From Chloracidobacterium validum (GTDB taxonomy: Bacteria > Acidobacteriota > Blastocatellia > Chloracidobacteriales > Chloracidobacteriaceae), in contig NZ_CP072648.1 in assembly GCF_018304825.1 (NCBI RefSeq), positions 1,781,501 through 1,845,500 of the forward strand: a stretch of DNA of 64,000 bases. The letters are read 5' to 3'. Of this stretch, positions 8,031 through 37,754 are shown in pieces. Each line of letters begins with the position of its first letter. The first letter of the stretch is position 1. Under the pieces are notes generated by a model, which was not told the DNA's origin, made no database searches, and saw nothing but the letters and a program-made list of their open reading frames with translations. Made by a program: the position numbers and the translations under genes.

Positions 8031-8918
8031 CTAATCCCGCACGGGCCGTCGGCTCGTTGCCCAGGCTGGCATCTTCAAAACTGGGCGATAGTTCCCTTCC
8101 TCAAAACTAAACTTGAAATAGCCATCAAAGCGTGAAACGTCGGAGATTCCCTCGCCGCGCGCAAGGGTTGGCATGCGAAACCGGTCGTTGAACTGTGAAT
8201 AATCCACCGTCGCCGAGATGGAGCGGATGTTTTTGAGGTTCTTATCGAGAATCTCTAAGTTGTACATGCCGTCTATGGTCAGGGTGAGCATCTCGCCTTG
8301 CTCACTTAGATAAATCACGCCAGAGGCGAGGGGCACGGTACGTGACCGCGTGCGTGGGCGAAAGCGGAAAGCCAGTTCCCCATCGCGCGGCGAAGTGGTT
8401 GGCTCGAACTCATAGTAGGCAACCCGTTCTGGTGTCAGTGGAAAAAAAATCAGATCAAAGAAGCCCTGTGCCGAGAGAATGGTCAACCCCTTGGGGTCAA
8501 CGCGACTCTTGGGGCGGCCGTTGTCATCGGTGTCGCTCACGATGCGCGTCAAGACCGGATATTGCCCGGTTTCATCTGGTCGGGTTGATGGCTCAATGAT
8601 GACTTCGGTTTCACGGTTCTGCCGCTGTCGCCCTGGCGCATCCCCAGGCCGGCGCGGCTTGTCGTAGCGCTCGACAGCCAGTCGCTGCCGATAGGTACAC
8701 CGGTCACGCACCACGGCCGATTGGAATTGGTTGCAGATTGCCCGGCAAACCACAGGCGGGATGCCGCTGCAATCATAACCAGGACTGCCAGGACAATCTG
8801 GACCTGGCATTCGAGAAACGGTTCGTGGCACTGACCAAGCGGAAGAAAGGTTTCCCAGCCCAAGCAGGACACCGATCAGAACCAGGACAAGCCAAGACCT
8901 AAACACACATTTCATCAT
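8031..8918 (-). CDS. Secreted protein of unknown function
   Basis: Not recognised. A signal peptide is clear: MMKCVFRSWLVLVLIGVLLGLGNLSSAWS. A Cys/Pro/Gly stretch follows (PDCPGSPGYDCSGIPPVVC), with about six Cys in the first ~75 mature residues, suggesting disulfides in the periplasm. The rest is predicted beta-rich and contains repeated DG or EG turns. The frame is open to 8948, but the ATG at 8918 has GAGGTG six bases upstream (GAGGTGAACGGTATG), so I start there. It faces pilC convergently and is divergent from the zinc-ribbon gene at 9049. Pilus involvement is not supported by any motif. Confidence 0.75.
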   Translation of the reverse strand: MMKCVFRSWLVLVLIGVLLGLGNLSSAWSVPRTVSRMPGPDCPGSPGYDCSGIPPVVCRAICNQFQSAVVRDRCTYRQRLAVERYDKPRRPGDAPGRQRQNRETEVIIEPSTRPDETGQYPVLTRIVSDTDDNGRPKSRVDPKGLTILSAQGFFDLIFFPLTPERVAYYEFEPTTSPRDGELAFRFRPRTRSRTVPLASGVIYLSEQGEMLTLTIDGMYNLEILDKNLKNIRSISATVDYSQFNDRFRMPTLARGEGISDVSRFDGYFKFSFEEGNYRPVLKMPAWATSRRPVRD

Positions 8919-13943: not shown

Positions 13944-14019
<76 letters not shown>

Positions 14020-34074: not shown

Positions 34075-34710
34075 ATGACCCTAGCCACCACTGATGCCGC
34101 AACCGTCGAGGTTGGCAACCAGTCTTCCCCGCTGCCCAGAGGCTTGAAACGCGAAACAATTGAGCTACCCGGCGGTGAAATCCTTGAGTATGACTACTTC
34201 AGCGCCGATCCCGCGACCATGACACGGCTGACGGATTTGCTTTTCAAGGAACACTGGCGGGAAATTGTCGTCGGCCCCTGTATTCAGGGGGCGGTGTTTG
34301 AAGTCCGGTTCGAGCAAGCGCCCGACGTCACGTTTTCTGATGGTTATCTTACCGTGGACCTCGGTTACTGGCACTTCCATTTGTGCACGGGTGTTCACAA
34401 GCACGCGCCAACGCCGGAAGTCGCCCGACAGCGGCAAGTTGCCCAAGTGGCCTTCTTCCTGCAACGTGGGCAACGGTGTGGCGGCGGACGCAGTTGGGGA
34501 CTACGGCTGTGGAACGGCCTCGGCGAACAGATGACCACCGTCTTTTTGCCAAACCCCTATTTGACCGATGACATGAGGGTGCGCAAGAACCCAGACTGGA
34601 ATCGGCTTGGGCTGTGGCACAAGCTCCGGGAAATCTTTTTGGGTGAGCCAATCCCGCCTGACCTCGTCACCCACTACAATCAAGAGCCAATTGTGTCGCT
34701 TCACCACTAG
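34075..34710 (+). CDS. Conserved-looking protein of unknown function
   Basis: 211 residues; not assigned. The sequence is compact with conserved-looking blocks: LLFKEHWREIVVGPCIQGAVFEV, DGYLTVDLGYWHFHLCTGVHKH, WGLRLWNGLGEQMTTVFLPNPYL and NRLGLWHKLREIFLGEPIP. The dense His/Cys cluster WHFHLC-GVHKH could bind a metal. No signal peptide or membrane helix. The open frame begins at 33760, but the ATG at 34075 has GAGGAG nine bases upstream and starts the protein cleanly. Such block conservation (rich in W, H and G) argues for an enzyme or ligand-binding protein. No operon partner. Confidence 0.75.
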   Translation: MTLATTDAATVEVGNQSSPLPRGLKRETIELPGGEILEYDYFSADPATMTRLTDLLFKEHWREIVVGPCIQGAVFEVRFEQAPDVTFSDGYLTVDLGYWHFHLCTGVHKHAPTPEVARQRQVAQVAFFLQRGQRCGGGRSWGLRLWNGLGEQMTTVFLPNPYLTDDMRVRKNPDWNRLGLWHKLREIFLGEPIPPDLVTHYNQEPIVSLHH

Positions 34711-34782
34711 TGACCGGCACACCGCGCGGCCGTCGTGCCTACCAGTCCAGCGGTAACGCCCAAAAACGTTCCGGCAAAAACA

Positions 34783-34815
34783 CTGACCGCCGCCCAACCT
34801 GTAGGCGGCGGTCAG
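34783..34815 (-). terminator. Strong rho-independent terminator for the 17-codon ORF
   Basis: Perfect 12-bp GC-rich arms CTGACCGCCGCC (34783-34794) and GGCGGCGGTCAG (34804-34815) with a nine-base loop. On the minus strand the hairpin is followed by TGTTTTTG. It lies 39 bp after the stop of the small ORF at 34855-34908 and ends minus-strand transcription from it or from the hydrolase gene at 35101. Confidence 0.75.
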
Positions 34816-34854
34816 CGTCCAGGACAAATCACCTGAAAACCCGGCTTCACAGCA

Positions 34855-34908
34855 CTAGCCAATAAGAACGCTGGCTGACGGCGAACCCGGAAGTATCCCT
34901 TCATTCAT
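34855..34908 (-). CDS. Tiny 17-codon ORF with ideal ribosome-binding site
   Basis: On the minus strand AAGGAGGTGATCC, an extended match to the 16S rRNA 3' end, directly precedes ATG at 34908. The ORF encodes MNEGILPGSPSASVLIG and stops with TAG. The terminator at 34783-34815 follows, so the unit looks complete: Shine-Dalgarno, ORF, terminator. It sits in the 390-bp gap between the gene ending at 34710 and the hydrolase gene ending at 35101. It could be a signalling or modified peptide, a leader, or the 5' part of a small RNA. I recognise no known peptide family. Independent transcription is not proven. Confidence 0.5.
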   Translation of the reverse strand: MNEGILPGSPSASVLIG

Positions 34909-35100
34909 GGATCACCTCCTTGCAACGTCAGTATCGGCAACCCGTAATTGCCACATTGCGCCGTCACACTAGCAGACCGGGGGTTGTCAGAAAAGCGAAA
35001 ATTCACTCGCAGTCATGGCGTTACGCCTGACACCATTGGGCCATTGGCCACCAATGACACCTCATTGGGTTGCAAGCGAGCTGGATGTTTCAGATACGCG

Positions 35101-36678
35101 CTATAGACGGCGCACGATTGCCCGCCTTCCTTCAATACCGGTACGGCTCACGGGCCAGACCGCGACGGCCCGCGCGGTTTCCGGCAGCGCCACTTGGTGG
35201 CAAGTGGCTGGCTGCACCTGCAACTCCCAAGTTTCACCGGTCTGAATGGCGATGCACCAACGCGCAACCGGCGCGGCTTTATCGGACGTGCTGTCCATCG
35301 TGGGTGACACGACCTGCCAGGCGGCAACCAGATGACGCCTGGTTGGATCAACCCCGATCTCCAGGCGCGGCGCCGGCAGCACCGTCGCATCCAGCCAGGG
35401 AGACGCTGGCACCAGCGCTGGGATGGCATAGACTTCCTTTTTGAGTAAGTCGGACAACCCGCCCCGGTTGCGTCGAAAAGCGCGAAAACTGAAGTGGATG
35501 TTTCCTCCCTGTCGGTTCAACCGCCTGGCGAGTCTGACTTGAGCTGCAATTTCATGAGCCGGAACGGCGCGCGGCGTGCCATCCGCGACCTTGAAGGCCG
35601 CGCTTCCAGGCCAGACGTGGCGTCCCTGGCGGTTCTGCGCCAACCACCATTCGAGCAAACGCGGGTAACTTTGCCGCTCACGCTCAATCGGCCAGTACAG
35701 TTGGGGAGCGAGATAATCCACCAGTCCCTCTGATAGCCACCGGCGGGAGTCGGAGCATAGCTCCATGTAAGAGTTAAGCCCCTGAATACCAGGTGGGTGG
35801 TCTGGCTGCCAGATGCCAAACGGACTGATACCAAATTTCACGTACGGCTTGAGCCGCCGAATCCCGGCTGAGACTTCCCCAAGAAAGACGTTGATGTTAT
35901 GGCGTCGCCAGTCATCGCGCGTCCGCCAGGTCTTTCCGTGACCATACCGCGCCCAACTCGCATCGTCTGGAAACGGGATGAGGTAGCCGGAGACCAGTCG
36001 TTCCTTGTACGGATAGAAATAGTCATCGAAGTGAACTGCGTCTATATCGTACCGCTCGACGACATCCAGAATCACCCGACAGGAATGCGCGCGCGCTTCC
36101 GGTTCGCCTGGGTCGAGCCAGTGATAGCGACCATAAGGCTTAGCCAAATCCGGTCGCTGCCGCGCAATGTGCTGCGGGTCAACACCCCCTTGCCGCGCTC
36201 GGTGCAGCGCCCGAAATGGATTGAACCAAGCGTGTAGTTCAAGCCCGCGGGCATGGGCCGCTTCAATGGCAAAGGCAAGTGGATCGTACAGTGGCGACGG
36301 CGCTTGCCCCATGGTGCCGCACAGGTACTCGGACCACGGCTCATACGGACTCGCATAAAGCGCGTCGCACATGGGTCGAACTTGAAAAATGACCGCGTTG
36401 AAACCCAGTGTCTGCGCCAGATCGAGAATCCCAAGCAACTCGGCCTGCTGCTGCTCAGGCGAGAGGTAGCGCGACGAAGGAAAATCTATATTCTCAACCG
36501 TTGCTACCCAAACCCCGCGAAACTCACGTGGGAAGCGTGGCAGCCCGGCACCGAGCTTTTCGGCAGTCTCTAGGTCCTCGCTTGGCCAACTGGAAAGGCA
36601 ACCCAAAACCCCTTCGGTTGGAAGCACGCAGCCTCCCAAACCGAGTGCCAAGCTTTTCAAGAACTCACTGCGCGTCAT
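35101..36678 (-). CDS. Secreted glycoside hydrolase-like protein (GHL10 / DUF187, YngK-like)
   Basis: About 525 residues. Signal sequence MTRSEFLKSLALGLGGCVL, with a Cys that may be a lipobox or part of a Tat-like signal. The core is the GHL10 TIM barrel: FRGVWVATVENIDFPSSR, LGFNAVIFQVRPMCDALYAS, GLELHAWFNPFRA, YDIDAVHFDDYFYPY, VKFGISPFGIWQPDHPPG and VDYLAPQLYW. The C-terminal ~90 residues are a beta domain. Acts probably on peptidoglycan- or polysaccharide-type substrates at the envelope. A TTG at 36735, overlapping the stop of the nucleotidyltransferase gene, is an alternative start; I prefer the ATG at 36678 because the signal peptide begins there. Confidence 0.9.
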   Translation of the reverse strand: MTRSEFLKSLALGLGGCVLPTEGVLGCLSSWPSEDLETAEKLGAGLPRFPREFRGVWVATVENIDFPSSRYLSPEQQQAELLGILDLAQTLGFNAVIFQVRPMCDALYASPYEPWSEYLCGTMGQAPSPLYDPLAFAIEAAHARGLELHAWFNPFRALHRARQGGVDPQHIARQRPDLAKPYGRYHWLDPGEPEARAHSCRVILDVVERYDIDAVHFDDYFYPYKERLVSGYLIPFPDDASWARYGHGKTWRTRDDWRRHNINVFLGEVSAGIRRLKPYVKFGISPFGIWQPDHPPGIQGLNSYMELCSDSRRWLSEGLVDYLAPQLYWPIERERQSYPRLLEWWLAQNRQGRHVWPGSAAFKVADGTPRAVPAHEIAAQVRLARRLNRQGGNIHFSFRAFRRNRGGLSDLLKKEVYAIPALVPASPWLDATVLPAPRLEIGVDPTRRHLVAAWQVVSPTMDSTSDKAAPVARWCIAIQTGETWELQVQPATCHQVALPETARAVAVWPVSRTGIEGRRAIVRRL

Positions 36679-36731
36679 GACGTGCCAACCACCGGCGTTG
36701 AATCCACTCCCTGGCCAAAACCTGGTTCCGG

Positions 36732-37754
36732 TCAAAAATGGACGATGAAGTTCTCGCCCACAAGCTTCCCTTTGCCTTCAGCCACCAGTGCATCCAACGC
36801 GGGTGGGTCTATGCCATCGGCACGCACGACGGCTGATCGGGAAAGTGTCGCTCCATCGGGGAGGTTCACGCCGTCTCCGACAATCACTTCCCTGAGGACT
36901 ACCTTAGCGCCGACCCGGACGCGGTTCCAGAGAATTGTACGCGCCAAGCTGGCGTCAGACGCAACTTGGCAAGCCGCGCCCCGAATCACAGCCCGTTCAT
37001 CGCCGGCCAGGCGACAGGAAAGATCGAGGTAGCGCTCCAAGGTGCTGAATTCGTACCAAGCCTCATCGGGCGCAGCCACGTGAGCCATGACACGCTGCCC
37101 ATCGGCGATGGCGCGTGGGTACACGTCGGTCGTCGTGTGTGAGAACACACCCGGCGGGATGTAGTCAAAGATTTCCGGTTCAAGCAGTTGGATGCCGGTA
37201 AAGAATAGCGGCGGCGCCTCCCAAACCGGGACGGACGAACCGGCATCGGACGGCGGCGGCGCGAACCTACGAATGGCCCCACCTTCATCTACCTGGACGA
37301 CGCTGAATCGCTCGCGCCGGAGATTTGGCTTGAGAATCAAGGTTGCCAAGGCGCGGTGGTTGCGATGTGTTGCGCGGGCAGCCTCCAAGTTGATGTCGGT
37401 CAGGAGCTTGCCGTTCATCACGACAAAGGTCTCCGTTGGGTTCAGCAGAGCCTTGGCGTGGTCGAGTGCGCCCCCGGTGCCCAAAATCGCCCCTTCCTCG
37501 TGGCTGTAGGTAATGCGGCAGCCAAAGGGCGAACCGTCACCAAGCGCGGATTGAATCGCCTCCCCCCTGTAGTGAAGGTTGACGACCAGTTCACGGCAGC
37601 CAAAACGCGCCAGATAAGCCACGCCGTGGGCAATGAGCGGCTGCCCGAGGACCGGCAGCGCCGGTTTTGGACGATCCAGCGTCAAAGGAAACAGCCGCGT
37701 CCCGAATCCGGCGGCTAACAGCATGGCTTTCATGGCGTGAACGGAAGACGTCAC
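36732..37754 (-). CDS. Sugar-phosphate nucleotidyltransferase (NDP-sugar pyrophosphorylase)
   Basis: 340 residues. N-terminal Rossmann-like domain with the activation loop MLLAAGFGTRLFPLTLDRPKPALPV, and sugar-phosphate motifs GTGGALDHAKALL and VVMNGKLLTDINL (normally VVNxDxxxD; here NGKLL replaces the metal-binding NxD, which is unusual). The C-terminal part is a left-handed beta helix-like repeat (VIRGAACQVASDASLARTILWNRVRVGAKVVLREVIVGDGV). It resembles MurNAc-1-P uridylyltransferase / mannose-1-P guanylyltransferase proteins. The start is a GTG directly after the stop of the DUF4388 gene; ATG at 37733 is an alternative. It overlaps the next gene's possible TTG start. Confidence 0.9.
   Translation of the reverse strand: MTSSVHAMKAMLLAAGFGTRLFPLTLDRPKPALPVLGQPLIAHGVAYLARFGCRELVVNLHYRGEAIQSALGDGSPFGCRITYSHEEGAILGTGGALDHAKALLNPTETFVVMNGKLLTDINLEAARATHRNHRALATLILKPNLRRERFSVVQVDEGGAIRRFAPPPSDAGSSVPVWEAPPLFFTGIQLLEPEIFDYIPPGVFSHTTTDVYPRAIADGQRVMAHVAAPDEAWYEFSTLERYLDLSCRLAGDERAVIRGAACQVASDASLARTILWNRVRVGAKVVLREVIVGDGVNLPDGATLSRSAVVRADGIDPPALDALVAEGKGKLVGENFIVHF

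Follow-up and report, generated by a model that had tools for sequence, protein, structure and literature searches.

A predicted small RNA gene of Chloracidobacterium with a masked Shine-Dalgarno sequence and a tiny open reading frame

Chloracidobacterium is a phototrophic genus of the Acidobacteria. A 64 kb stretch of the C. validum genome (64,000 nucleotides of contig NZ_CP072648.1), referred to here as the window, contains a feature whose best explanation is a Chloracidobacterium small RNA gene of about 180 nt, predicted to run on the minus strand from about position 34961 to about position 34776. Most likely the feature is a structured RNA gene specific to the genus; its tiny ORF would be gated, and the peptide may or may not matter. 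The reading given a probability of roughly 0.55 is that of a stand-alone, terminated RNA gene that is probably bistable and controls access to its tiny ORF through its own fold. Comparison of the copies indicates that the selected product of the element is mainly RNA.

Organization of the element

An earlier note on this DNA had described an ideal Shine-Dalgarno directly before an ATG, without stating the strand, and a 17-codon ORF ending in TAG. Both are present on the minus strand, where AAGGAGGTGATCC (34921-34909) abuts the ATG (34908-34906) and the ORF occupies 34908-34855. That reading had missed the strand, the structured leader and the predicted masking of the Shine-Dalgarno. From 5' to 3', the element consists of a possible -10 box, GCGCAATGTGGCAATTACGGGTTGCCGATACTGACGTTGC, AAGGAGGTGATCC, the ATG with its 17-codon frame, and two further hairpins, the last of which is a GC stem followed by GTGTTTTT.

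The possible -10 box, TAGTGT, lies within TGCTAGTGT at 34966..34971 (minus strand), 4 nt upstream of 34961; it was found by eye and is tentative. The boxes read by eye in the copies are TAGTGT, TATTTT, TAGCGT and TAGACA, 4-5 nt upstream of GCGCAATG. A sigma-70 promoter scan of 34600-35200 returned none for the element and none on either strand, antisense included. A sigma-54 promoter suggested by TGTGGCA...TTGC was dropped, as its spacing differs between copies and its bases form P2 (by eye).

The leader is predicted to form a two-helix domain. The 5' strand of P1, GCAATGT (34953..34959), is helix 1 of the RNAalifold consensus and is invariant, with 7 pairs in all four sequences; the 3' strand, ACGTTGC (34922..34928), is assigned from the consensus fold and pair counts. 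The P2 hairpin (34936..34952) is stacked on P1 in the consensus fold of the four sequences and varies in length and loop. Four of its pairs are invariant and two are kept in 4/4 sequences via one-sided changes (A-U, G-U, G-C). Between P2 and the 3' strand of P1 lies an invariant 7-nt bulge, GATACTG (34929..34935), unpaired in the consensus fold.

The Shine-Dalgarno AAGGAGGTGATCC (34909..34921), a 13-nt complement of the 16S rRNA 3' end, is invariant in 5/5 copies. It is predicted to enter a 10-pair hairpin (34889..34919, helix 3 of the consensus) with the AUG in the apical loop. In this hairpin GGAGGTG pairs with TACTTCC, which is codons 5-7 of the ORF, followed by an A.A mismatch and TCC paired with GGG. 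All cells of the hairpin are paired (100%), and three pairs vary via G-U or A-U in the four copies. The ORF itself (34855..34908) encodes MNEGILPGSPSASVLIG, with its stop TAG at 34857-34855. The P4/P5 hairpin (34840..34888; helices 4 and 5) covers the 3' part of the ORF and beyond; three of its pairs have changed on both sides, and 93-95% of its cells are paired.

The element ends in a terminator-like hairpin (34776..34820), whose core ACCGCCGCC / GGCGGCGGT is invariant in 5/5 copies. The earlier claim of a 12-bp GC hairpin with a T-run held for the hairpin and the TTTTT, but the MFE stem has 17 pairs, with a 5-nt loop, before GTGTTTTT. The T-run is TTTTT in G000 and is shorter or absent in the other copies. 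The GC hairpin is absent from the list of a simple terminator scan; the terminator call is based on the fold and a reading of the sequence.

Conservation and RNA folding

Copies from four genomes (G000, G003, G004 and G001) were aligned. A fifth, from G005, was left out because it equals that of G001 over the aligned stretch, six differences lying further downstream. The comparison base is therefore four distinct sequences, all of one genus. Of 132 columns, 79 are invariant, including a single run of 38 that covers leader, Shine-Dalgarno and start in four divergent copies; 71 invariant columns fall in the first 95 of the element and 8 in the last 37. The adjacent DUF7676 gene has 328 of 522 codon positions invariant, 11 of 63 shared four-fold sites invariant, and a longest invariant run of 11. 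As judged from these alignments, conservation of the element is far above the neutral level, and strong selection is shown on about 75 nt comprising the leader, the Shine-Dalgarno and the start. No Rfam family matches the locus at threshold, although conservation of these 75 nt, the first of the element, exceeds that of the adjacent protein gene.

RNAalifold, given no hint, returned five helices with 39 pairs, one of them the Shine-Dalgarno hairpin that displays the AUG in its loop. The predicted architecture is a 5' two-helix domain with the GATACTG bulge, the Shine-Dalgarno hairpin and a 3' hairpin. Read as minus-strand RNA, 151 of 155 cells are paired (97.4%), against 29-46% in slid controls. 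An RNA of the complementary strand was rejected, with only 125 of 155 cells paired. At the variable pairs, 60 of 64 cells are paired on the minus strand and 42 of 64 on the complement; the minus strand fits better because many changes run through G-U. These counts show that the predicted consensus fold scores as minus-strand RNA.

Three pairs have two-sided changes, a number reached in 19 of 500 shuffles, and the covariation score was reached by 15 of 500. Taken alone, the Shine-Dalgarno hairpin has z values of -2.1, -3.7, -3.2 and -3.7. No variation occurs in P1 or in most of the Shine-Dalgarno stem. Covariation thus says nothing about P1, and the support for both comes from energy and conservation. 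The unconstrained MFE of G000 is a different fold from the consensus.

Coding potential

The ORF is open in 4/4 distinct copies, at 17-18 codons, and accommodates a 3-nt indel; its stops (TAG, TAG, TAG and TGA) stand at the same aligned place. A column-permutation test gave p = 0.037 for frame 0 and about 0.73 and 0.75 for frames 1 and 2. This signal is real but weak as support for translation. The earlier description of a discrete small gene with an unusually strong Shine-Dalgarno is borne out by these data.

The peptide is another matter. The comparison does not support a reading in which it is the main product. The second half of the four peptides (MNEGILPGSPSASVLIG, MNEGTLPGFSSASAARVR, MNEGTLPGLSSAGALRVG and MNAGTLPGPASADTSRVR) is not conserved, and the conserved codons of the ORF are those paired in RNA helices. 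Codon 10 is variable at its first base and invariant at the other two, opposite to what coding constraint would produce. Codons 6, 7 and 11 keep their third bases unchanged at places paired in the RNA fold, and no amino-acid conservation was found beyond what RNA pairing explains. Charge and hydropathy differ between the copies, with GRAVY values of 0.63, -0.19, 0.23 and -0.43 for peptides of 17-18 residues. Because the distal half of the peptide drifts while a stretch spanning leader, Shine-Dalgarno and start is invariant, constraint appears to act mainly on the RNA and not on the peptide.

These observations bear on the possibility that the element is a micro-peptide gene, whose product would be the peptide of 17-18 aa and whose structured leader would do no more than adjust translation, as in small stress or signal peptides. 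The ideal spacing of the Shine-Dalgarno, the preserved frame with its 3-nt indel, the two kinds of stop at one place and the frame-0 signal all speak for it. Against it stand the drifting second half (8 of the last 37 columns invariant), the reversed pattern at codon 10, the differences in charge and hydropathy, and the retention of third bases at codons 6, 7 and 11, as compared with 11 of 63 four-fold sites in the neighbouring gene. On balance this explanation is unlikely, but is one to be kept in view; were it true, the element would encode a conserved micro-protein of a kind easily missed by gene callers.

In some copies (G001 and G005, loci L004 and L005) a long frame starts at a second ATG 4 nt downstream of the first; in L005 this frame has 157 codons and runs through the terminator. 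Coding from this second ATG (34904) was rejected, frame 1 having p = 0.73 over the ORF stretch.

The extended Shine-Dalgarno sequence

The earlier note held the match to the 16S anti-Shine-Dalgarno to be above chance, and this was confirmed. The exact 13-mer AAGGAGGTGATCC occurs once in the 64 kb window. When up to two mismatches are allowed, 2 occurrences are found and 1.2 expected, which leaves the exact match alone as notable. The longer AAGGAGGTGATCCATG is present in 4 of 396 genomes of the phylum, and three of these are the same locus in the same genus.

The calculated duplex of the 13-mer with the 16S end has an energy of -23 kcal/mol, compared with -10 to -13.5 kcal/mol for the Shine-Dalgarno hairpin. 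The predicted mean unpaired probability of GGAGG is 0.03-0.19 at 37 C, 0.06-0.25 at 51 C, which we take to be the growth temperature, and 0.16-0.41 at 70 C. An RNA thermometer was rejected because the predicted opening of the Shine-Dalgarno is too small at 51 C. Our thinking is that the 13-mer and the hairpin may have evolved together, since a strongly folded start would need a long Shine-Dalgarno.

The length of the match could also point to a non-coding RNA that acts on the ribosome, its 13-nt 16S complement capturing or parking 30S subunits or pairing with pre-16S, and the ORF being incidental. A normal Shine-Dalgarno needs no 13 nt, the calculated duplex is strong, and the 13-mer is invariant in all five copies and rare elsewhere. 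However, an AUG stands at ideal spacing and its frame is kept, and the 13-mer would be masked in both of the predicted states described below, with GGAGG seldom unpaired at 37 C. An RNA of this kind is considered improbable.

Alternative pairing in the element

Two mutually exclusive states were compared by constrained folding: state A, the P1 helix, and state B, a helix of CGTCAG (34875..34880) with the invariant leader sequence CTGACG (34926..34931), which overlaps P1 and the bulge and excludes P1 when so paired. CGTCAG is invariant and corresponds to codons 10-12 of the ORF, as seen by sequence comparison and folding. In an RNA ending at CGTCAG, B is calculated to be favoured over A by 2.6, 5.6, 5.5 and 7.9 kcal/mol (G000, G003, G004 and G001). 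In the 123-132 nt RNA reaching the end of the 3' hairpin, A is favoured over B by 2.7, 2.9, 2.9 and 1.8 kcal/mol in the same order. The calculated preference is thus for B during transcription and for A once complete, in 4/4 copies. Folding of the growing transcript passes from P1 to B and back to P1 in three copies and partly so in G004 (P1 0.28 at 128 nt).

When only the variable letters 3' of CGTCAG were shuffled, a full-length preference for A no weaker than the observed one was obtained in 19, 2, 5 and 12 of 150 trials, the values of 19/150 and 12/150 being weak and the copies related to one another. This modelling hints, though it falls short of proof, that the 3' half has retained the ability to take CGTCAG back despite its drift. 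When more 3' flank is included, the MFE of the copies other than G000 mixes A and B, which makes the preference for A marginal. State B derives from 6 invariant pairs and energies, not from covariation. The Shine-Dalgarno is masked in both predicted states, and since full-length A still masks it, the switch need not change ribosome access.

A more specific version of the RNA reading is an autonomous bistable switch, in which a riboswitch-like P1/P2 domain with its invariant GATACTG bulge would act on no neighbouring gene, its sole target being the loading of ribosomes onto the element's frame of 17-18 codons. The helix exchange during transcription would set a time window, and the ribosome would resolve the switch through the full-length 16S complement. 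In this detailed form the proposal is speculative and rather unlikely.

Distribution and gene neighbourhood

The earlier note had called for a search of related genomes for the same arrangement, and the search found it. The element is single-copy in 5 of 7 Chloracidobacterium genomes and was found in no other genome. A blastn search of 58 genomes with a 221-nt query gave six matches: its own genome, four of the six others of the genus, and one at class level that covers query 184-220 only (the 3' end), the Shine-Dalgarno region lying outside. The core 21-mer without mismatch identified the same five genomes among 162 of the class, and three mismatches added four class genomes. An RNA model built from the four copies recovered the same five genomes at E < 1e-19 among 156 relatives; four extra matches at E 0.5-0.8 are chance-like and by eye lack the AAGGAGGTGATCC start. 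Plasmid and phage collections gave no match to the element.

Among 84,980 species, the exact 18-mer AAGGAGGTGATCCATGAA was present in 38 stretches, two of which are the element (L042 and L073). The other 36 have no leader and include ordinary gene starts; the frame from their ATG is shorter than 30 codons in 6 of 36. In Rhodocyclales and relatives (L053, L058, L063 and L071), AAGGAGGTGATCC-ATG starts a conserved 46-aa peptide of several betaproteobacteria, the N-terminus of which is signal-like (in L058, MKFVARILALMFALAATSAWACPGDKAKDDGKQSTPKKPTTSLAID). Burkholderiales (L057, L061 and L074) have a 45-aa form of similar appearance.

Two genomes of the genus are without the element, G002 (85% complete) and G006 (99% complete). 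In G006 (L037:2130-2320), DUF7676 and TauE/SafE lie side by side with no element between them. This is a clean absence with both flanking genes retained, so the element is dispensable in the genus.

In the source genome the upstream neighbour is a gene for a glycosyl-hydrolase-like GHL10 protein on the same strand (window 35101-36735). In G001, G003, G004 and G005 the upstream gene is of TauE/SafE type, an assignment for which Pfam was run on the G003 copy only. The element stayed while its upstream neighbour changed. Past the terminator, the next gene is the convergent DUF7676 in four of five loci (G000, G003, G004 and G005), with a DNA polymerase III delta' gene beyond it in the source genome.

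The fifth locus, in G001, carries an insertion of ~8.4 kb (C1 about 868200-876700, L088) in the 3' arm of the terminator hairpin. A perfect 32-bp direct repeat (L088:300-331 and 8744-8775) flanks this insertion, which encodes a type IIG restriction enzyme-methyltransferase (PADLOC E 0), a type II methyltransferase, an uncharacterised protein and a protein whose matches to HerA/mads_8 are weak. None of these four genes was recognised as an integrase. Insertions classically occur at the ends of small RNA genes, and by this analogy the insertion site fits a real gene end at the terminator of the element.

This arrangement argues against a leader peptide, attenuator or riboswitch for a downstream gene, a role that had been raised in the earlier note. 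The riboswitch-like 5' domain, the helix exchange and the terminator hairpin are the usual parts of a leader. However, the gene after the terminator is convergent in four of five loci and the 8.4 kb insertion follows in the fifth, so a leader would have no downstream gene to act on; none of the Rfam riboswitches matches either. A leader function is very unlikely.

A type I toxin mRNA is at least as doubtful; the earlier note had suggested a toxin as one possible product. The ORF is short, and the Shine-Dalgarno is predicted to be masked during and after transcription, as in hok mRNA; AapA mRNA shares this feature (PMC6733600). The peptides are too short and not hydrophobic (17-18 residues, GRAVY 0.63 to -0.43), which makes a membrane toxin unlikely. 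The promoter scan gave no antisense promoter, but none for the element itself either. Finally, a fortuitous origin, as a decayed rRNA 3' fragment (the 13-mer being the complement of the 16S end) or a chance Shine-Dalgarno beside a terminator, is hardly credible given 38 invariant columns in divergent copies and no rRNA found by cmscan in the window, which also excludes a 16S gene end read in reverse as the source of the 13-mer.

Proposed mechanism

The preferred reading, a terminated RNA gene with a gated ORF, can be cast as a sequence of folding events. RNA polymerase would first make the P1/P2 domain with its GATACTG bulge, after which the 13-nt Shine-Dalgarno would fold into its hairpin with the AUG in the loop. 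As CGTCAG emerges, the outer helix CTGACG/CGTCAG would replace P1 and close the start region further. Once the 3' hairpin and terminator are complete, CGTCAG would be taken back and P1 would reform. The full 13-nt match to 16S may still let a 30S subunit open the Shine-Dalgarno hairpin. The tiny ORF would then be loaded with ribosomes and translated in a timed or conditional way, possibly tuned by a ligand of the invariant bulge. The guess we favour is an RNA of dual purpose, translated under certain conditions; its effect might come from the peptide, from capture of ribosomes or from pairing with a target RNA.

Were this RNA reading true, the genus would have a structured RNA of its own that combines a perfect 16S complement with an exchange of helices and a hairpin presenting the AUG, all in one small terminated gene. 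It would also offer a compact system in which to study competition between ribosome binding and co-transcriptional folding.

Comparison with known systems

No family of Rfam 15 matches the element at the gathering score; the only match in the window is a tRNA at 13947-14019. Below threshold, RF01867 (CC2171; gathering score 75 bits) scores 16.2 bits in the window, 26.3 in L002 and 24.0 in L003. It is the best or near-best sub-threshold match in three of four copies scanned and is unlisted for L005 at E up to 5. CC2171 is a Caulobacter sRNA; the element has in common with it a small size, a GC terminator and the position of AAGGAGGUGAUCCA close to the beginning of the RNA. The shared part, however, is the 16S complement and the GC stem only, with low posterior probability between them, and the CC2171 model leaves AAGGAGGUGAUCCA almost unpaired, whereas here it lies in a 10-pair hairpin. 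A search of titles and abstracts for CC2171, a 13-mer small RNA and Chloracidobacterium RNA found no description of the element.

SgrS/SgrT is a dual-function sRNA, and the element resembles it in being a terminated small RNA with a small frame and a good Shine-Dalgarno. The same three features are shared with peptide-coding sRNAs (PMC5521070). Unlike in dual-function sRNAs, the most conserved part here is the start region and not a separate pairing region. Extension of Shine-Dalgarno pairing toward the start codon occurs in ordinary genes of S. aureus (PMC13009471). The element is similar in this respect, but here the extension is an exact 13-mer in one structured RNA.

The hok mRNA, like that of AapA, has a masked Shine-Dalgarno. 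The AapA/IsoA type I toxin mRNAs of Helicobacter are described as having Shine-Dalgarno-masking hairpins in the 5' UTR and ORF and transient co-transcriptional structures (PMC6733600). The element would share with AapA and hok a Shine-Dalgarno masked by successive hairpins (predicted here), a short ORF and a stand-alone transcript. Its peptide is not hydrophobic, in contrast to theirs, and no antisense RNA is known for it, so the mechanism is partly alike and the element is not a member of the group. By analogy of mechanism, toxin mRNAs whose Shine-Dalgarno is masked by successive hairpins are nevertheless its nearest counterparts.
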